DNA from: Micromonospora lutea
GTDB lineage: Bacteria; Actinomycetota; Actinomycetes; Mycobacteriales; Micromonosporaceae
Length of the DNA stretch: 64,000 nt
Assembly: GCF_016863535.1 (NCBI RefSeq)
Contig: NZ_BOPB01000001.1
Location: 124,001-188,000 of the forward strand
Direction: 5' to 3'
Every line of letters starts with the position of its first letter. Position 1 is the stretch's first letter. This document shows, one piece after another, positions 29,534 to 39,441 of the stretch. Both the position numbers and the translations under genes were made by a program. The notes beneath the pieces are model-generated. The model ran no database searches, was not told the DNA's origin, and worked only from the letters and a program-made list of their open reading frames with translations.

Positions 29534-32500
29534 GTGAGCAAACGGCCGAAGACGGCGGGTTCCTTCCTGTCGCGTCTACGCCGGCCGGCAGGTCGGCTCC
29601 GCGACATGCCGATCTGGTCCAAGCTCGGTCTCATCATGATCGTGCCGACCATCGCCACGGTCGTCGTGGGTACCAGCGGTCTGGTCGACCACCTGGACGA
29701 GCTCAACGACGCCAACCGGGCCGGCGACCTCGCGGAACTCATTGGTCACTCCGGTGCGCTGGTCGATGGGCTTCAGGACGAGCGGACCGCCGCCGTGCTG
29801 CTGCTCGGTCTGGATCCGCAGCGGAGCAGCGCCGAGCAGAAGGAAACCGCCTCCACCCGCTACAACGAGGTCTCGTCCGGCGTCGACCAGGCCAAGGCCC
29901 CTTACTCGCGGCAACGGTCGGACCTCACCGACCTGCCCGTCAGCCTGCAGAGCCTGCTCGCCCAGATCGACGAGCGCCTCGCCGACCTGCCGGGTGCCCG
30001 CAGTCAGGTGCTCAACGGAAAGTTCCGGATCACCGACGCGCTCCAGTCCTACGACGAGCTGATCAACCAGCTCCTCACCATCCGGGACTCGGCCAGCCAG
30101 CTGGCCGGTGACAACGATCTGAGCGACCGCATGCGGGCCGCCGCCGCAGTGGCCCGGGAGAAGGAATGGCTCTCCGTCCGCCGGGTGGTCGTGCACCGGG
30201 CGTTGATCTCGGGCGGCATGAGCTCGACTCTGCGGACCGACTACATCTCCAGCGAGACCGGTCAGCAACAGGCGCAGCAGAGCTTCGACGCGGTGGCGAC
30301 CGAGGCGGAGGCGGAGTTCCACGCCCAGACCATCGGCGGCGGTGACCGTCGGCAGGCGACGATCTACATCAGTCAGGTCAACGCCGACAACTCCCAGAAC
30401 CTCGCCGGCATCTCGTTCACCCCGCAACAGTGGGACGACGCGCTGGTCGCCAACGGCAAGCTGATCCGCTCGGTCGAGACGAAGTTCGACTCCGACGTGG
30501 CGGACCAGGCCGGCGAACTCCGCTCCGAGGTGCAGCGCACGGTGTTCCTGGAGACCGGCCTGCTGCTCACCATGCTGCTGCTGGCCATCCTGCTGGCGTT
30601 CCTGGTGGCCCGTTCGATGGCCCGCTCGCTGCGTGAGCTGCGTCAGGGTGCGCTCTCCATCGCCCAGTACGGGCTGCCCCAGGCCGTGGCTCGACTGCGT
30701 GACCCGCAGGTCACCGGGCAGCTCTCGCCGGTGCAACTCGCCAACCAGATCGCCGAGCCACTGCCGGTACGCAGCAAGGACGAGTTCGGTCAGGTGACCG
30801 AGGCGTTCAACGCGGTCCACCTGGAAGCGGTCCGCACCGCTGCCGAGCAGGCCGCGCTGCGGTCGTCGGTCGCGACGATGTTCGTCAACCTGGCCCGCCG
30901 GTCCCAGATCCTGGTCGACCGGTTGATCGGCCACCTGGACCGGCTGGAGCGAGGCGAGGAGGACCCGGACCGGCTGGCGGAGCTGTTCCAGCTGGACCAC
31001 CTCGCCACCCGGATGCGCCGCAACGACGAAAACCTGCTGGTTCTCGCCGGTGCCGACTCGACCCGCGTGCAGCGCGAGCCGGCCGCACTCATCGACGTGC
31101 TGCGGGCCGCCCAGTCCGAGGTCGAGCACTACACCCGGATCGAGTTCGGGGTGATCGACCGGGACATCGAGGTCGCCGCGCACGCGGTCAACGACCTCGT
31201 CCACCTCGTCGCCGAGCTGTTCGACAACGCGACCGCCTTCTCGCCGCCGGACTCGCAGGTGCTGGTCGAAGCCCGCCGGGTCGGCGATCGTGCCTCGCTG
31301 TACGTGGAGGACCGCGGCATCGGCATCAGCGGTGAGCAACTGGCCGAGCTGAACGAGCGGCTTGCCACGCCACCGCAGGTGGACGTCGCCGTCTCCCGGA
31401 TGATGGGTCTCGTCGTGGTCGCCCGCCTGGCCTCCCGGCACGCCGTCAAGGTCGAGCTGCGGCCCGGCAGCGATCGGGGCACCGTCGCCGAGGTCACGTT
31501 GCCGCCCACCGTGCTGGTGCCTCGGGCGCTCTCCGGTCGCGGGCAGCAGCCCGCCGCACTGCCGCCGGCAGCCAACCCTCCGTCCGGGCCGACCCCGGCG
31601 TTCGGTGCGCTGGCCGCGCTCGGCAACGGCGCACACCCGCCGGCCCATCCCGCCGCGCACACCCCGGGCGGTTCGGGCAACCAGGTGACCCTTGGCGGTC
31701 GGCCCTTCGACCCGGCCAGCCGCAACGGTGCCGGCACGCCGTCCACCGTGGGCAGCGGAGGTAACCTGCCCGCCTGGTCGGACCTGACCGGTGCCAGCGG
31801 CGCCACCGGTGGTAACGGCAATGGCAACGGCTTCGCGCCGCTCACCTCGAACGGTCACCCGATCGACCCGCTGCCGCACCGCCGCTCCACCGACGAGTCG
31901 GGCGGCCAGCCGCCGGCCATCCCGCGTCAGCTGCCGAGCAGCCCCGAGGCCGGGCCGTACGCCCCGCCGGCAGTGTCGGCTCCGCCGGTGCCTCCGGTGT
32001 CGTCGCCCCCGGTCTCCGGTACGCCGTACTCGGCTCCGCCGGTCTCGGCGGCCCCGGTCTCCGGTCACCCCGTGTCGGCCTCGCCCGTCTCGACGCCGCC
32101 CGGCGGACCGCTGCCGCAGCGGCCCGTCTCGGCGGCACCCAGTGCCGCCGCGGCCTCGGCACCTCCGGCATGGCCGCCGGTGGCCGGGGAGCCCGCAGCC
32201 CCGCCCGTGCCCGAGCGGCTGGCCGCCGCCCTGGACATGACCACCGAACTGCCTCGGGTGCAGCACCAGACCCCGGCCGCCAGGCCGGCACCGGCGCAGC
32301 GACAGCCGGCTGCACCCACGACGCCGCAGGCCCAGAACCGGCAGCGGTACGCCGATGAGACGATGGAGCTGCCGATCTTCCGGGAGCTGGAGTCGGCGTG
32401 GTTCCGTACCCGTCGTCCTGGCCCGGAGGAGTCGGCCGGTGCGCGTCAGCCGGCTACGGCCGCTGCGACGACCCAGCAGCTCTCCACGGTCGACGTCGGT

Positions 32501-33004
32501 GAGCGGCAGGCCCAGCAGACCCCGACCGGGACGACAGGTAACGCACCAATGGCACAGACTCCGACGGGGGCGGGCGCGTCCGGCGGGAACGGCGCGGCAG
32601 CGAGCGGCGGGCCCCGTCCCGGCGCTGCCGACAGCGCGCCCACGCACCGCCCGACACCACAGGAGAGCATCTGGCGGACTGCGGCCGACGACGGTTGGCG
32701 GGCGGCCAGCGCCGCCAGCCAGGCGCCGGCGGCGGGCACCACCGAGACCGGGCTGCCGAAGCGTACGCCGATGGCACAGCTCGTGCCGGGGGCGGTGGAG
32801 AAGCCCACCACCTCCGTGCAGCGCCGAAACCCGGAATCGGTACGCGGTCTGCTCTCCGCCTACCACCGGGGTGTCCAGCGGGGACGTAGTCACCCCTCGG
32901 ACAGCAACCCGACCGGCTCGGAGGGAACTCCGGGCGGGCAGCAATCCTCGCAGTCTGGCTCTGGCCCGGTGGCCGGGAGCGGGCAGAAGGAGCAAGAAGG
33001 ATGA
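29534..33004 (+). CDS. Conservon sensor histidine kinase with NIT domain (CvnA-like)
   Basis: 1156-residue membrane kinase. A short cytoplasmic N-terminus leads to TM1 (~30-50, [20 protein letters not shown]), an extracytoplasmic nitrate/nitrite-sensing-type (NIT) domain (~55-330), TM2 (~338-357, [20 protein letters not shown]) and a HAMP region. The dimerisation segment around [20 protein letters not shown] is followed by an HATPase_c domain: N box [14 protein letters not shown] (~561) and G box [10 protein letters not shown] (~590). The last ~500 residues are Pro/Ala-rich and end with conserved islands [27 protein letters not shown] and [12 protein letters not shown] 29534 is the start. Its ATGA overlap with the roadblock gene shows coupling. 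Signal and partner are unknown. Confidence 0.9.
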
Positions 33005-33405
33005 CTAGTACGCAGGATCTCGGTTGGCTGCTGGCCAACTTCGCCGATCGGGTACCCGGTGTCGCACACGCGGTCGCCGTCTCCGCGGACGGCCTGCTCC
33101 TGGCGTCGTCACGAGACCTTCCGCGGGACCGGGCGGACCAGCTGGCGGCGATCGCCTCCGGCCTGGTCAGCCTGACCCAGGGCGCGGCCCGTTGCTTCGA
33201 AGGAGGCGCCGTGCTGCAAACCGTGGTCGAGATGGACAATGGCTTCCTGTTCCTGATGTCGATTTCCGACGGCTCGTCGTTCGCGGTACTCGCCGCACGT
33301 AGTTGCGACGTGGGACAGGTCGGTTACGAAATGGCCCTGCTCGTTGACCGGGTGGGCGATGCCCTTACCCCACAGCCGCGCACGGCTGTGGGGATGATGG
33401 GCTGA
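33001..33405 (+). CDS. Roadblock/LC7-domain protein of the conservon (CvnB-like)
   Basis: 134 residues, a single roadblock/LC7 domain: [40 protein letters not shown], then [20 protein letters not shown] and [16 protein letters not shown]. Roadblock proteins bind and regulate small GTPases, here most likely the CvnD-type GTPase two genes on. The ATG at 33001 overlaps the kinase stop as ATGA, so translation is coupled. Confidence 0.93.
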
Positions 33406-33506
33406 TCGTCGCGCCAGCCGGTGGGGGCAGGCGGGACGGCAACATTGCATACGACGGGTAATGCCGGTGCGAGCCGGTGTTGGGTGCGAAGGAGGTGAGC
33501 GGCAAT

Positions 33507-33884
33507 ATGGTTGATCGTGACGAGCCGACCGGTGCGCTGGTACGTCCATACGCCGTGACCCGCGGTCGTACCCGTCCCCGCCTCGACATCGCCCTTGAGG
33601 CGCTCGTCGAGACGACGGTGCGCGGTCGGGCCGCTGCCACTGGCAATGGTGGTCAAGGCCGTGAGCACCAGTACATCGCCGCGCTGTGTGACGGACGCGT
33701 GCAGTCGCTCGCGGAGATCGCGGCGCGGATGCAGCTTCCGCTCGGCGTGGCCCGGGTGCTCATCGCCGACATGGCGACGGACGGCCTGGTCGCGGTCCAC
33801 GAGCCGACCATCCTGGACGACTCGGACGACGCGGTGGGCACTGAACTGCTGGAGAGGGTGCTGAGTGGACTTCGCAGGCTCTGA
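33507..33884 (+). CDS. DUF742 protein of the conservon (CvnC-like)
   Basis: 125 residues. DUF742 hallmarks: LVRPYAVTRGRTRPR near the N-terminus, a winged-helix-like core HQYIAALCDGRVQSLAEIAA followed by RMQLPLGVARVLIADMATDG, and the ending LLERVLSGLRRL. ATG 33507 is chosen; GAAGGAGG at 33488-33495 lies 11 bases upstream, a slightly long spacing. It overlaps the GTPase gene by 20 bases. DUF742 proteins are found almost only in conservons and their precise role is unsettled. Confidence 0.92.
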   Translation: MVDRDEPTGALVRPYAVTRGRTRPRLDIALEALVETTVRGRAAATGNGGQGREHQYIAALCDGRVQSLAEIAARMQLPLGVARVLIADMATDGLVAVHEPTILDDSDDAVGTELLERVLSGLRRL

Positions 33885-34479
33885 CATGTCGCACCGGCCG
33901 CCGGCCCCGAGCGGGCGCGTGACGTCGGCGAAGATCGTTATCGCCGGTGGATTCGGCGTCGGCAAGACGACGCTGGTCGGCTCGGTCTCGGAGATCACGC
34001 CGCTGACCACCGAGGCCATCATGACCTCCGCCGGAGTCGGCGTCGACGACACCCGGCAGGTGCCGGGCAAGACGACGACCACGGTGGCCATGGACTTCGG
34101 CCGTATCTCGATAGATCGCGACCTGATCCTGTACCTGTTCGGTACGCCGGGTCAGACCCGTTTCTGGTTCATGTGGGATGAGCTGGTGCGGGGCGCGATC
34201 GGCGCGGTCGTGCTGGTGGATACCCGCCGGCTGGCCGACTGCTTCGCGGCGATCGACTTCTTCGAGCACCGGCGGCTGCCGTACCTGGTTGCCATCAACT
34301 GCTTCGACGGGATGCAGTACCACGACCCGCAGGACGTTCGGGAGGCGCTCGCGATTTCCAGCGACGTGCCGGTGGTGGCCTGCGACGCCCGGAACCGGGA
34401 GTCGACGAAGCACGTGCTGATCTCGCTGGTCGAGTACGTGCTCACGATGCGTCGCTCCCGGGCCGTCGCACCCGCCTGA
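33865..34479 (+). CDS. Conservon GTPase (CvnD-like)
   Basis: 204 residues, small Ras-like GTP-binding protein. Seen: P-loop GGFGVGKTTLVGS, switch-type segment DDTRQVPGKTTTTVAMDFGR, G3 LFGTPGQTRFW with the Gln-Thr characteristic of MglA-like GTPases, and a degenerate G4 (VAINCFDG) rather than NKxD. It is thought to complex with the roadblock and DUF742 partners and respond to the kinase. GTG 33865 gives MDFAGSDMSHRPP, overlapping the DUF742 gene. It is the last gene of the conservon and is followed by a terminator hairpin. Confidence 0.93.
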   Translation: MDFAGSDMSHRPPAPSGRVTSAKIVIAGGFGVGKTTLVGSVSEITPLTTEAIMTSAGVGVDDTRQVPGKTTTTVAMDFGRISIDRDLILYLFGTPGQTRFWFMWDELVRGAIGAVVLVDTRRLADCFAAIDFFEHRRLPYLVAINCFDGMQYHDPQDVREALAISSDVPVVACDARNRESTKHVLISLVEYVLTMRRSRAVAPA

Positions 34480-34576: not shown

Positions 34577-35794
34577 TCAGCTGAGCCGGTTCCAGGCACC
34601 GCCGTCGACCCGGTACACCCCGAGGGAGTGGCGGTCCATCCCGCTGTGCCGGATGGGCGTGAACGAGTACATCCCGGCCAGCCCATCGGTGACCTGGTTC
34701 TGCAGGTACGCCCGAAGCCGTCCGCGGTCCACACTGTCGGCCAACCGGGCCGCCGTGCTGATCAGCAGCAGCGCGTCCGAGGCGTACGGGGCGAAGCCAC
34801 GGTAGGTGCCGTGCGCGCGAATGTACGCCGAGACGAGGTCGCGGTAGGCACGGCCGGCGGCGCTGCTGTTGGCGATCGTGGAGCCGCCCAGTGAGGACGG
34901 GTGGACCGCGAAGGAACCCTCGACGGCGGGGAGGTTGCGGCCGTCGAGGGTCTCGTCGGCCACCGCTCCGGCGTCGAAGAACAACTCACCGTCATGTCCG
35001 GCAGCGCGTAGCGCCCGCGCAGCGGCACCGGAGTTGGGTGCGGTGGCCCAGACCACCACACCGTCCGCGCGGGCCGCGACGGCCTGTTCAGCGGCGCGGG
35101 AGACGCCAGCCTTGTCGGCGGGTAGCCGTAGGGTGCGGGCCAGACCCACGTCCGCGGTGCGCAACGCGCCCCGCATGGCCCGTACGCCCGAGTCGCCGTG
35201 CAGCCCGTCTTCGGCCAGCAGCACCACCCGGCGCAGCCCTTCGCCTCTGATCAGCTGGGCGAGCCGCCGGGCCACGTCTCCAGCGTCCGGGGTGACCTTG
35301 TAGATGAAGGCCCGCTGGGCCAGCGGCACGGCGATGGGGTCACCGAACGCCAGCGACACGAACGGCACCCGAAGCTTCTGCGCCACCCCGATGACCGACA
35401 TCGAGGTTTCCGCCAGGGTGGCCCCGAGCAGGGCGTGCACGTCGTCCCGCTGGCCCAGTTCGGTCGCCTGCCGGGCGGCCAGCCGGGGATCGCTGCGGTT
35501 GTCCAGCACCTCCACCCGTACCGTGCGGCGCAGGTTGCCGACCGCCACGCCCTTCTCGTTGAGGGCGGCCACGCTGATGGCCAGCGCCCGCTCCTGGAGC
35601 ACTCCCAGTGCCGCGCCGGGGCCACTCAGCTCCAGCGTGGCACCGACGACCAGCTCGTGACCGGGGGTGGGTCGGGCGACGGCGTTCTCCCGCTCGCGGT
35701 CACGCCCGCAGGCGCTCAGCAGAAGCGAGCCCGCCGCTGCGGCCAGTACGCCGCGTCGAGTGATCACGGATGGGCCGGTTACCGGTGTCGCCAT
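34577..35794 (-). CDS. LivK-type substrate-binding lipoprotein, probably Tat-exported, no transporter nearby
   Basis: 405 residues. The N-terminus ITRRGVLAAAAGSLLLSACG combines a twin-arginine motif with a lipobox (LSAC). The mature protein follows the periplasmic-binding-protein type 1 pattern: VVGATLELSGPGAALGVLQE, VHALLGATLAETSMSVIGVA, YKVTPDAGDVARRLAQL and FAPYASDALLLISTAARLAD. Such proteins bind amino acids, amides or related small ligands. No permease or ATPase gene is adjacent, so it may act as a ligand receptor rather than transport component. It faces the conservon and may be cotranscribed with the IS110-like gene upstream of it. Confidence 0.83.
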   Translation of the reverse strand: MATPVTGPSVITRRGVLAAAAGSLLLSACGRDRERENAVARPTPGHELVVGATLELSGPGAALGVLQERALAISVAALNEKGVAVGNLRRTVRVEVLDNRSDPRLAARQATELGQRDDVHALLGATLAETSMSVIGVAQKLRVPFVSLAFGDPIAVPLAQRAFIYKVTPDAGDVARRLAQLIRGEGLRRVVLLAEDGLHGDSGVRAMRGALRTADVGLARTLRLPADKAGVSRAAEQAVAARADGVVVWATAPNSGAAARALRAAGHDGELFFDAGAVADETLDGRNLPAVEGSFAVHPSSLGGSTIANSSAAGRAYRDLVSAYIRAHGTYRGFAPYASDALLLISTAARLADSVDRGRLRAYLQNQVTDGLAGMYSFTPIRHSGMDRHSLGVYRVDGGAWNRLS

Positions 35795-35955
35795 GAGTCG
35801 CCTTCCCGCCCGGCGACCTGCCGCCGGATGTTCCGCGGGTATGCTCCCGGCCCTGCCGACCCGGCGTCAAATTATCCGGGTGTGGGCAGAAACACGCAGG
35901 TGAAAGGCCCGATGAGACCGTCGGCAAGGTCGCTCTGCCGACGGTGCCTCTCAGG

Positions 35956-38280
35956 TCAGGAGCGGTAGCCGGCGGAGCGGTACTCGTACTCCCGATCGTC
36001 GTCGCGGTCGCCGGTGTCGCGGGTGAAGTCCCAGCCTCCGGCGGACTCCCGTCCGGGCCGCCCGCCGACCGCGAAACCGCCGATCTCCTGCCCGCGACGC
36101 CAGCCGCGGAAGTAACCGGTGGTGTTCTCGGCCAGGCTGGCCGCGTCTCGCACGATCCGCAGCGGGCGCTCCTCGCGCAACGGCGAACCAGGCACCAGGT
36201 TGGCCTGCGGTACGCGCTTGGGTAGCCCGGCGTTGGTTTCGTCGCCCACCGCGGGACGGGCCGCCTGCTCGGCGGCCTGCCATCCGCTGTCGGCCGTGGT
36301 GGACCAGTCCAGGTCAGCCTCTTCGCCGTGTCCCACGAACCAGGCGGAGCGGGCCTGCGCGAAGATCAGCAGATCGCCGTCGCCCTCGTCGGAGACCGGC
36401 GGTGGCCGGTGCTCGATCGGCGGCTCGGGTGCACGGCGGGCCGGCGAAAGCTCCAAGCGCTCGGATCCCCGGTTACCGCGTTCCGGGCTGTCCCGATCGA
36501 CGAGCCGTAGCGGCGGTGTCTCCGGTGGCGGCGCAGCCCCGTGGCGTAGCGCCCGGTCGGCCAGCGGTGGCGGCTCGACCAGCCGCAGCACGGGCGGCTC
36601 CGGCGGCAGATCGTCAGCGAGCCACGGCGGGGTGACCCGGCGTTCGGCGCTGTGGTCGGTGGGCGTCTCGGGTGCGCTGCGCCGACCCCGGTCGTCGTAC
36701 GAGCCGACGACGGGATTACGGGCCGAGCTGTCCGCCGGGTTCTCCGGGTTGTTGACCAACGGCCAGTTCGAGCGGGAGCCCGGGGGAGCGGTCTTCTCAT
36801 CCTCGGGGCGGGAGGCCGGTACCGGGACGCTGAGGTCGGTGGCGCTGAAACCGCCGGTCGGCGCCGATGGTCCACCGTTGGTTTTCGGCCGGGGCGGGAT
36901 GACGGTGCGTTGGCGCTCCGCTCGCGCGTTGTTGATCGCCGCGGTGGTCAGGGTCGGCCGGAACGGCTCACCGGCCTCGGCGGGCGGGATGTTCCCGCGC
37001 TGCGTCGGTGCGATCGGGGTGATCCCGGGCGGCGGCGGTGGCGGCGAGGAGATCGGTCGGTTGCTCGGACCCTCCCCACGGGAGGGTGACCCGGTCCGGG
37101 ACGGCAGGGCGGGTGGGCCGGCAACGGCGGCCGGAGTCACCGGCGCGGGCGCGACCGGCGGCGGAGCGACCGGCGCGGGCGCCACCGGTGGTGGCCCGAG
37201 CGGGCGCGGCGAAGGCGGCTGGGCAGTGCCCGGCACCGGCTCCGGCCGGCTGCGGCGGCCACCCCCGGCCGGCTCGGGTCCGTTGGGGCGCACCGACCGC
37301 AGGCCGGATGCGGTGTTGGGGGTGCTCGCCGACAGTTCGCCGACCTGTTCGCCGCGTCGTGCGGCGGCTCGCCGACCGGTCGCCTGCACCGGCCCGGCGG
37401 TGCGGGCACGCAGGGCGCCGACGAGCGCGTCGCAGCCGGCGTCACAGGCTCGCACCGAGGCCACCGCCTGCCGGATGGTCTCCGCGGCGGCGGAGGTGAG
37501 GGCCCGGTTGACCGTGGCCCGCCGGGGTGTCTCGGAGATGGCCACGCGCAGCGCGGTGACCGCCTCGTCGATCGCCTCAGCGTCACCGGCCCCCTCGGCG
37601 GCGAGTTGGGCGGTCACGGCGTCGGCGGTGACTGCGGCGTCGCGGGCACGGCTGGCCGCGTCGGTCAGCATGCCCGGCTCGGGAAGTGCGTCCAGCACGG
37701 CCAGCGGGATCGGCTCGGCGGGGTCGGGATAGGCGCGCAACGCGGCCGGGTAGAGCTCCCGGAGCACCTCGCGCAGCGCGACCGCGGCGGAATGCCGGCC
37801 GCTGGCCAGCGCGGCGTGTGCGGCGAGAATCTGCTTGTAACCGGCGAGGTCACGGGGGGCGGGCAGGGTCACCGCCGACAGGGCGCCGGCCTGCAGCGAC
37901 CGGGCCAGACCGATCGCGCGCCGCACAGCCGGCGGTGACTGCATCTCCTCCAGCGAGTCGTCGTCAGCGAACCGTTCGGCGAAGTCGTCAACCGAGTCGT
38001 CGTCGGCGATCGCCAGCGGACGACCGGCGGCGCTGAGCAGGGAGGTGATGGTGTGGTCGTCGCTGTCGGCGGCTATCGCCGCACCGCTCGGCCCGCCTGA
38101 GCGTTCCACGAGCAGCGTGACCAGCCGGGCGTAGCCCGTCGGATCGTCGCCGATCTCGCAGACATGCAGCAGACGGCCTGCGTCGTCGACCACAGCGGAC
38201 GTCAGCGCCGATCCGGCCGAGACCGGTCGGTCGGCCGGGTCCGCCGAGGTCAGACCGCAGTACACGCGCACGAGCGCCAC
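35956..38280 (-). CDS. IS110-transposase-like protein with Pro-rich linker and conservon-type C-terminal tail
   Basis: 774 residues. Residues 1-~120 follow the N-terminal layout of IS110-family DEDD transposases: VRVYCGLTSAD, VVDDAGRLLHVCEIGDDPTG, AIAADSDD, AAGRPLAI. A LRELYPAALRAYP segment resembles the IS110 middle region. The expected first Asp (Cys-Gly-Ile-Asp) is Thr11 and the Glu is Ala70, so catalysis seems lost. A ~230-residue Pro-rich region (~370-620) follows. Residues ~630-740 repeat the conservon kinase tail: IFAQARSAWF, WSTTADSGWQAA, GLPKRVPQANLVPG and FRGWRRGQ. The GTG at 38280 is preferred: AGGAGG stands 9 bases before it. No inverted repeats or second transposon gene are present. 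I infer a domesticated protein; the homology call rests on motif reading only. Confidence 0.65.
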   Translation of the reverse strand: MALVRVYCGLTSADPADRPVSAGSALTSAVVDDAGRLLHVCEIGDDPTGYARLVTLLVERSGGPSGAAIAADSDDHTITSLLSAAGRPLAIADDDSVDDFAERFADDDSLEEMQSPPAVRRAIGLARSLQAGALSAVTLPAPRDLAGYKQILAAHAALASGRHSAAVALREVLRELYPAALRAYPDPAEPIPLAVLDALPEPGMLTDAASRARDAAVTADAVTAQLAAEGAGDAEAIDEAVTALRVAISETPRRATVNRALTSAAAETIRQAVASVRACDAGCDALVGALRARTAGPVQATGRRAAARRGEQVGELSASTPNTASGLRSVRPNGPEPAGGGRRSRPEPVPGTAQPPSPRPLGPPPVAPAPVAPPPVAPAPVTPAAVAGPPALPSRTGSPSRGEGPSNRPISSPPPPPPGITPIAPTQRGNIPPAEAGEPFRPTLTTAAINNARAERQRTVIPPRPKTNGGPSAPTGGFSATDLSVPVPASRPEDEKTAPPGSRSNWPLVNNPENPADSSARNPVVGSYDDRGRRSAPETPTDHSAERRVTPPWLADDLPPEPPVLRLVEPPPLADRALRHGAAPPPETPPLRLVDRDSPERGNRGSERLELSPARRAPEPPIEHRPPPVSDEGDGDLLIFAQARSAWFVGHGEEADLDWSTTADSGWQAAEQAARPAVGDETNAGLPKRVPQANLVPGSPLREERPLRIVRDAASLAENTTGYFRGWRRGQEIGGFAVGGRPGRESAGGWDFTRDTGDRDDDREYEYRSAGYRS

Positions 38281-38344
38281 GGCGTCGTCCTCCTCCCGGG
38301 ACACAGGGCTTTCTCTGCCAGAGACTGATGCTCCCTGGTGCGGG

Positions 38345-39310
38345 TCAGTCGCGCCAGTCCACGACCGCAGAGATCTTCCCGACAATGGTCCGCCAACCCA
38401 GACTTGCGGTTTGTGCCCCAATTTTCTTCAGCCTACGCCGTCCCATGAAGGCGCCGATGCCGCCGCCGATCGACGCACGGAGCGCCTCGTCAAGGTCGTC
38501 GAGACTGGAGCCTGCGGAGAGCATGTGCAGCACCGCCGGCAACCGCAGGGCGTACGCCAGGTCGCGGGCCACCTCGCCGGCCTCGATGAGCAGCGTCGGG
38601 TCCCAGGTGTCATGCCCGCCGCGGAGGTTCTCCACGACGAGGTCGAGCTCGTAGACGTCATCCTCCAGCGGCGCGATGTCGGCGGGTTCCACCCGTTCGG
38701 ACAGTGCATTCCAACTGTCCAGCTGAGACAGGTCGTTGGGCGCCCCGGAACGGACGAAGCTGACCAGGGACTCCGGCGTCTTGAACAGCAGCAGTCGCCC
38801 CCGGTGGGTCAGGAAGATCGGCACCTCCTCGTCGCCCGCCTCGTCGACGGCGGGCTCCTCGGCCTCGTCCTTCCCGTCCTCGGTGGCGTCCCCGTCCCCG
38901 GTGGCGTCGCCGCGCTGAGCCCGCTTTTCCTCGTCCTCGCTCTCGGCGAACTCCCGGGCGACGTCCTCGTCGAGGATGACCACGTCGTCCTCGTCGTCGT
39001 CGCCGTCCCCGACCGTGTCGGCCTGCCGGCGGGCGAGGAAGGGGTCGTCCGCGTCGCGCTCGGCCACGTCGGTCGGGGTCAGTTCCCGGGCCGGCCGGTA
39101 CGCCCGCAGGGTGAAGCCGGTGCCGGACGGCAGCGCGATTTCCACCGGGTCGATCCGCAGCTTGTCCCAGAGCTCGCGGTTCGCGGTCTCCACCGCGGCG
39201 ACGTCGGGCGCGGAGTCGGCCGGCTCGGCGACGTCCGGCTCGCTGGTGCCGGTCGTGTCATCGAGCTCGGGCTCGTCGGCGTCCGGCCGTTGGGGCGACT
39301 GGCGGGCCAC
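38345..39310 (-). CDS. Acidic conserved hypothetical protein
   Basis: 321 residues. An acidic, Asp/Glu-rich low-complexity stretch (~95-160) divides the protein. After it comes an ordered C-terminal part with PIFLTHRGRLLLFKTPESLV, SFVRSGAPNDLSQLDSWNAL, VENLRGGHDTWDPTLLIEAG and GGGIGAFMGRRRLKKIG. I do not recognise the family and see no signal peptide or membrane helix. GTG 39310 is chosen because GGAGG is 5 bases upstream on the minus strand; ATG 39376 would add 22 residues. It lies 64 bases upstream of the IS110-like gene on the same strand, so the two are probably cotranscribed and may act together. Confidence 0.7.
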   Translation of the reverse strand: MARQSPQRPDADEPELDDTTGTSEPDVAEPADSAPDVAAVETANRELWDKLRIDPVEIALPSGTGFTLRAYRPARELTPTDVAERDADDPFLARRQADTVGDGDDDEDDVVILDEDVAREFAESEDEEKRAQRGDATGDGDATEDGKDEAEEPAVDEAGDEEVPIFLTHRGRLLLFKTPESLVSFVRSGAPNDLSQLDSWNALSERVEPADIAPLEDDVYELDLVVENLRGGHDTWDPTLLIEAGEVARDLAYALRLPAVLHMLSAGSSLDDLDEALRASIGGGIGAFMGRRRLKKIGAQTASLGWRTIVGKISAVVDWRD

Positions 39311-39441
39311 GGTGACCTCCGTGTGCGTCGGGCTACCACCCACGGCGCTGATGCCGGTGAGTGACTCTGGGCACATACCCTAGTTGGCTGCGCTGGGTAA
39401 CCGCTGGCCGCACCCCGGTGGCCCACCACGCGGATAACCAG

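Follow-up and report, generated by a model that had tools for sequence, protein, structure and literature searches.

The 64,000-nucleotide stretch of Micromonospora lutea DNA analyzed here (the window; contig NZ_BOPB01000001.1, positions 124,001 to 188,000) contains a gene that joins an N-terminal region resembling IS110 recombinases to a C-terminal tail of the kind found on CvnA, the sensor kinase of the conservon G-protein systems of actinobacteria. We hold it reasonably probable that this gene is a fossil chimera in which the kinase portion of such a receptor gave way to an IS110 fragment, and that the catalytically dead product, which probably binds proteins, serves a roadblock/G-protein module as its input or scaffold. 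A dead transposase fragment and a receptor tail, kept together at the same spot throughout the Micromonosporaceae, suggest that the protein is now the input part of a G-protein switch. The domestication of an IS110 recombinase, with catalysis lost, is old and family-wide here, and it would tie the input side of conservons, which has been called largely unexplored (PMC13343842), to one short conserved tail.

N-terminal homology with IS110 recombinases

The relationship with IS110 was captured by a family profile built from the window protein and 40 loci (41 rows). Aligned profile to profile with 17 IS110 transposases, it matched with a probability of 99.6% (E 1.5e-24) over 263 columns, pairing residues 3-296 of the window protein with residues 2-268 of 410 in IS110. 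The IS110 rows were those remaining after loci L124 and L129-L131 had been dropped (start motif not found), repeats had been merged to 21 sequences, and four of these had been excluded as being at most 250 aa long. Residues 1-300 used as a query found four frames elsewhere that were read as IS110 transposases (L100-L103, E 1e-6 to 3e-11) and one partial IS110-type frame (E 3.6e-4). A deep profile of the family, A4, recovered one of these four transposases, that of G087:C21 (E 7.5e-24); its best match outside the gene itself was an unread 415-aa frame (E 5.6e-25). Because residues 1-300 alone find L100-L103 and a family profile finds G087:C21, the likeness goes beyond chance, and on these comparisons residues 3-296 are homologous to the RuvC-like and helical parts of IS110 recombinases.

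None of the IS110 models of Pfam, NCBIfam and PHROGs matched the window protein alone (for PF01548 up to an E of 1), and a phmmer search of PDB sequences was negative for IS110 as well; the homology is therefore visible only with relatives or profiles. A PF01548 search with residues 1-270, proposed in a first-pass annotation of this DNA, was accordingly negative for the window protein by itself and positive for seven of the 16 sequences in A4, a diverse alignment (lowest E 2.2e-7). Structure prediction had been proposed there as well. An AlphaFold model built from 46 close relatives (family sequences only) had ISCro4 as its top PDB match in Foldseek (E 6.8e-4, TM-score 0.30, rmsd 17.7) and IS621 as its fifth (E 0.025), with Spt6/Tex and integrase cores among the matches and a strand/helix order of E-E-E-H-E-H in the RuvC-like part, but the mean pLDDT of the model is 50. 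At this confidence and with TM-scores of about 0.3, the matches are support in the expected direction at most.

Loss of catalytic residues and of positive charge

The catalytic residues of IS621 are D11, E60, D102 and D105 in the RuvC domain and S241 in the Tnp domain, and mutation of any of the five abolished recombination (PMC11208158). In a MAFFT alignment with IS110, none of the 41 family members has the first Asp, its place being taken by Ala (33), Thr (6), Ser (1) or Val (1); the third Asp is kept in three members and the fourth in one. The Glu position holds Asp in 34 members, Glu in two and another residue in five. In the IS110 control rows, counted where a letter stands at the position, the four residues are present in 17/17, 17/17, 15/16 and 16/16 cases. 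The window protein has Thr11 at the first position and Asp72 at the Glu position, and has lost both Asp residues of the DxxD motif. The first-pass annotation was therefore right in placing Thr11 at the first catalytic position, whereas its reading of the Glu as replaced by Ala70 is out of register, since it is Asp72 that aligns with the IS110 Glu; the losses at the third and fourth positions lie beyond what it discussed. In several deep members a D-x-x-[D/E] motif, noted by eye, is displaced by one residue, as if the catalytic site had decayed stepwise.

The common Asp at the Glu position and the shifted motif could also be taken as the altered metal site of a nuclease that acts with a partner. 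Such a nuclease is very unlikely, given the loss of the first Asp in all 41 members, the absence of both DxxD residues from the window protein, and the recombination-dead phenotype of the single IS621 mutants cited above.

The catalytic serine belongs to Transposase_20 (PF02371), the second model with which a match had been anticipated, and the full-length window protein has no match to it. The profile alignment stops at IS110 residue 268, the Transposase_20 match starts at residues 286-297 in three IS110 controls, and a Pro-rich linker stands where this domain would come in IS110. Judged from its sequence, the protein is without what IS110 recombination needs and probably does not work as an IS110 recombinase.

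The net charge of the helical part averages -2.3 in the family (range -10 to +2, 41 rows) compared with +6.9 in IS110 (range +3 to +11, 17 rows), and the median pI of the whole domain is 4.7 as opposed to 9.2. An acidic-to-neutral helical part does not support the DNA binding that had been suggested for this protein, and DNA binding was rejected as a first choice on that ground. A related possibility is a nucleic-acid-binding regulator, in which the dead RuvC/helical domain would still bind RNA or DNA, much as IS110 does with its bridge RNA, and the tail would bring in the roadblock/GTPase components. The retained helical part probably overlaps, by our own mapping, the IS110 region reported to contact the guide RNA (PMC12045711), and IS621 and a Nop5 structure (E 0.17) both appear in the Foldseek list. 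We nevertheless regard such a regulator as unlikely. The positive charge of the helical part is gone, and the Tnp domain, which in IS621 recognizes conserved bridge-RNA bases (PMC11208158), is absent at least in its Transposase_20 part. Additionally, only 64 nt lie between the chimeric gene and its upstream neighbor, and Rfam gave no match in the window at gathering thresholds, a dedicated bridge-RNA model not having been run. With the fall in pI from 9.2 to 4.7, the protein would not, on balance, act by nucleic-acid binding.

A CvnA tail and its linkage to roadblock genes

From about residue 634, the protein matches the tail of the CvnA encoded in the window (42% identity over 74 aa, E 7e-10), the CvnA-homologous stretch comprising about 100 residues near the C-terminus. 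The common pattern consists of L-x-I-F....S-A-W-F, W..AADxGWxAA and GLPKRxPxAxLVPG followed by a G/R-rich close, and it was found in 39 of the 40 loci (30 by pattern and nine by eye). In the other locus, L191, both this frame (ahead of the tail) and cvnA are broken, suggesting sequencing errors. The signaling role suggested in the first-pass annotation can thereby be narrowed to the conservon type. A profile of the tail picked up the CvnA of the own genome (E 9e-17) and a second tail-bearing frame (E 2e-17); within the class it had matches in 100 of 246 genomes, most of them in frames 800-1450 aa long. The chimera is thus like the conservon CvnA sensor kinases in its C-terminal tail and roadblock neighborhood, but it has no Pfam match to NIT, HAMP or HATPase, and the IS110 remnant stands in their place. 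One genome of the class (G271) has eight tail-profile matches, several of them spanning nearly the whole tail, and may hold several conservon-type receptors.

Roadblock genes accompany this tail within and beyond the family. The own genome has three other tail-bearing frames at E under 0.01 (C10, C1 and C25, C1 being the cvnA of the window), each with a roadblock match 59-125 nt behind it. Outside the genus, a same-strand roadblock gene follows 26 of 26 tail-bearing frames, with the match starting between -18 and +257 nt from the stop; these are the placed loci among the 27 best-scoring ones, L269 being left out because its motif was missed. Behind the chimera itself, 15 of the 40 loci carry their own roadblock gene, the match starting 14-145 nt past the stop (at most 42 nt in 14 of them), and the four that were tested match Pfam Robl_LC7 at E 2e-12 to 8e-17. 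These loci belong mainly to deep lineages; in six, the stretch retrieved contains no conservon. Where the chimera has no roadblock gene of its own (25 loci), it always faces a convergent CvnA-D set (with the broken cvnA in L191), and the presence of the own gene changes twice on a quick tree. It is mainly the presence of a nearby roadblock gene at all 40 loci that leads us to infer docking of a roadblock protein by the tail. In mycobacteria, the CvnB homolog MfpD has been described as a GTPase-activating protein (GAP) and MfpC as a likely guanine nucleotide exchange factor (PMC13343842). A described role for the CvnA tail was not seen, and the term 'C-terminal' does not occur in the main text of PMC13343842 or PMC8510531. 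In loci L209, L210, L212-L222, L224 and L225, the CvnB-like roadblock gene lies 3' of the chimera in an apparent operon.

Conservation across the family

Profile A1 had matches (E up to 1e-4) in 197 of 200 Micromonosporaceae genomes, which span 43 of 44 genera. The weakest matches came from genus g187, where all five genomes read carry the whole chimera with its tail; the three genomes without a match, assembled in 360-780 contigs, gave none even with every candidate scored. A search of 394 genomes of the class gave 21 matches: three in the own genus, which are the gene itself, and 18 from beyond the family, of which 17 have an IS110 start (GIDW, GVDW or GDDW) and L124 is a partial frame without one. 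In the order (150 genomes), the deep profile hit frames of 140 to 576 aa outside the family. Eleven such loci were read (L295-L305): eight have at least two IS110 marks, L301, L304 and L305 have none or doubtful ones, and the tail occurs in no listed frame of the 11. No orthologue was recognized outside the family in the sampled genomes, where diverged ones could be missed; since only part of the first-look candidates was scored per genome (six in the class search, up to 17 with the deep profile), this absence is not proof.

The median dN/dS is 0.15 over residues 1-290, 0.32 over residues 291-640 and 0.10 over residues 641-774, based on 61 sequences (the window and 60 of 80 loci) and on pairs with dS of 0.15-1.2 only. 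Nineteen loci ending at contig ends and L004, which stops at residue 378, were left out of this set, which was drawn from Micromonospora, Verrucosispora, Salinispora, Plantactinospora and unclassified Micromonosporaceae contigs. The quick tree separates the 41 family rows from the 17 IS110 rows with an SH-aLRT of 100. The gene shows no sign of mobility, being present as a single copy in its own genome and having the same upstream neighbor in 39 of 40 loci. Together these patterns support a host gene under purifying selection at a position fixed across the family. An annotation artifact or a decaying IS110 element of recent insertion, either of which would share with the chimera its IS110-like layout and nothing else, is practically excluded by the single copy, the common position, the low dN/dS and the split from the IS110 rows. 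A recent insertion is refuted by the occurrence in 197 of 200 family genomes as well, and a pseudogene was rejected on the low dN/dS and fixed position.

The idea of a catalytically dead IS110 fold domesticated beside a conservon, which the first-pass annotation had put forward, is thus supported by the homology, the loss of the first Asp and of Transposase_20, the distribution, the fixed position and the purifying selection. Its expectation for orthologues held for the position (39/40 loci) and for the first Asp (lost in 41/41) and failed at the Glu position, which is still mostly Asp.

The constant upstream neighbor is a same-strand SatS-like gene, assigned by NCBIfam NF050072 at E 7.4e-14 with 51.5 bits, the curated cut-off being 700. 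It raises the possibility that the chimera assists SatS-linked protein export and does not belong to the conservon, with the tail as a generic docking motif; indeed, the SatS-like gene is more constant (39/40 loci) than the convergent conservon (34/40). This is quite unlikely, as the tail is common to CvnA proteins, all 40 loci include a roadblock gene behind the chimera or a convergent conservon, and the SatS match falls far below the cut-off of its model. The SatS-like protein has an acidic N-terminal region.

Proposed origin and function

The order of SatS-like gene, IS110 remnant with CvnA tail, and roadblock gene looks like the outcome of an IS110 gene having landed in or beside a cvnA-cvnB pair, the order of events being our reconstruction. 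In the ancestor of the family, an IS110 fragment (the RuvC-like and helical parts without the serine domain) would have been fused to a CvnA tail in front of the roadblock gene. The product would be a cytosolic, soluble and presumably dimeric protein that serves as input or scaffold, and its dead RuvC/helical part may receive a signal or bind a partner. The flexible Pro-rich linker would span the distance, and the CvnA-type tail would dock a CvnB-type, GAP-like roadblock protein, coupling the chimera to a small GTPase in parallel to CvnA. In deep lineages the partner would be the roadblock protein encoded directly downstream; in the Micromonospora branch this gene would have been lost, and the CvnB of the convergent conservon is the likely partner.

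Several observations weigh against this proposal. The structural model is poor, with a mean pLDDT of 50 and an ISCro4 match of TM-score only 0.30 at an rmsd of 17.7, and weak metal binding is conceivable because the Glu position is acidic and several deep members have a D-x-x-[D/E] motif. The 26 tail-bearing frames followed by roadblock genes are best-scoring rather than random ones, and they were chosen by their tails, with their N-terminal domains unread. In the own genome, only three of 11 roadblock places (E under 1e-4) follow a tail-bearing frame, and three Micromonospora loci (the window and two others) have no same-strand roadblock gene after the chimera. Finally, no same-strand CvnC or CvnD homolog was found in any of the 40 loci, so that a full G-protein module is not encoded with the chimera.

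A broader version of the fossil-chimera proposal is advanced more tentatively: the fusion of IS110 into a cvnA-cvnB pair may have founded a kinase-less branch of receptors, in which a dead domain that descends from an RNA-guided recombinase acts as sensor or scaffold, with the CvnA tail as the roadblock dock and as the general docking element of conservon receptors. The linkage of tail and roadblock genes yields a testable rule, namely that any protein with this tail should feed a roadblock/GTPase module.

Compared with known systems, the chimera resembles the IS110 DEDD recombinases (IS621 and ISCro4; PF01548 and PF02371) in the RuvC-like and helical parts over the 263 aligned columns, and differs from them in lacking the first Asp and Transposase_20, in its fixed position, in its acidic-to-neutral helical part and in the fused CvnA tail. 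The Piv invertase is an IS110-type protein used as a DNA invertase; like the chimera it is kept for a host function, and unlike the chimera it is catalytically active on DNA. The accessory proteins CvnF and CvnE are also extra components beside a conservon, but they are a GAF protein and a cytochrome P450, respectively, and neither is described with a CvnA tail or an IS110 domain in the parts of the sources consulted (PMC13343842, PMC8510531). Nop5 and inactive TasR share with the chimera a non-catalytic RuvC-like domain before a coiled coil, and the inactive domain of Nop5 recruits fibrillarin (PMC12045711). Nop5 is therefore proposed as the nearest analogy for a dead RuvC domain that would recruit a partner protein, although Nop5 and TasR belong to RNA-guided complexes, whereas the chimera has no Transposase_20 and an acidic-to-neutral helical part. 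A description of the chimeric protein was not found among the listed papers on domesticated or inactive IS110 proteins or on conservons, judged by titles and the starts of abstracts, with most subscription papers outside this scope.

Gene layout and neighboring genes

The intact frame of 774 codons with its AGGAGG, the IS110-like layout, the Pro-rich linker and the signaling-type tail had all been noted in the first-pass annotation, and each is present in the sequence; the gene is real and lies on the minus strand, which had been left unstated. A complete conservon on the plus strand is convergent to it (Table 1).

Table 1. Coordinates, in window positions, of the chimeric gene, its parts and the neighboring features
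Feature	Position	Strand	Remarks
IS110-like/CvnA-tail chimeric gene	35956..38280	minus	774 aa, GTG start at 38280
AGGAGG ribosome-binding site	38289..38294	minus	8 nt 5' of GTG
RuvC/RNase H-like part	37906..38271	minus	residues ~4-125, border approximate
Helical part	37381..37905	minus	residues ~126-300; matches IS110 up to but excluding Transposase_20
Pro-rich, faster-evolving linker	36382..37380	minus	residues 301-633
CvnA-type C-terminal tail	36037..36381	minus	LLIFxxxxSAWF ... ADxGWxAA ... GLPKRVPQANLVPGS ... GYFRGWRRGQ
Hairpin directly 3' of stop codon	35917..35945	minus	terminator-like
SatS-like gene	38345..39376	minus	directly upstream, same strand; start codon not settled
cvnA	29534..33004	plus	NIT-HAMP-HATPase sensor kinase; tail homologous to that of the chimera
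cvnB	33001..33405	plus	Roadblock/LC7; candidate partner of the tail
cvnC	33477..33884	plus	DUF742
cvnD	33865..34479	plus	small GTPase; ATP_bind_1 and, weaker, GTPase profiles
Lipoprotein-type substrate-binding (periplasmic-binding-protein) gene	34577-35794	minus	between chimeric gene and cvnD

The hairpin behind the stop codon is strong (z -2.7 for the 76 nt at 35880-35955) and is probably a terminator. A same-strand homolog of the lipoprotein-type gene occurs in nine of the 40 family loci only, and this gene therefore comes and goes. Elsewhere in the own genome, about 32 kb past the window end, one IS110 reaches a full Pfam score (G000:C1:220426-220890, L306; PF01548 E 7e-47) and lies in an open frame of 405 aa.
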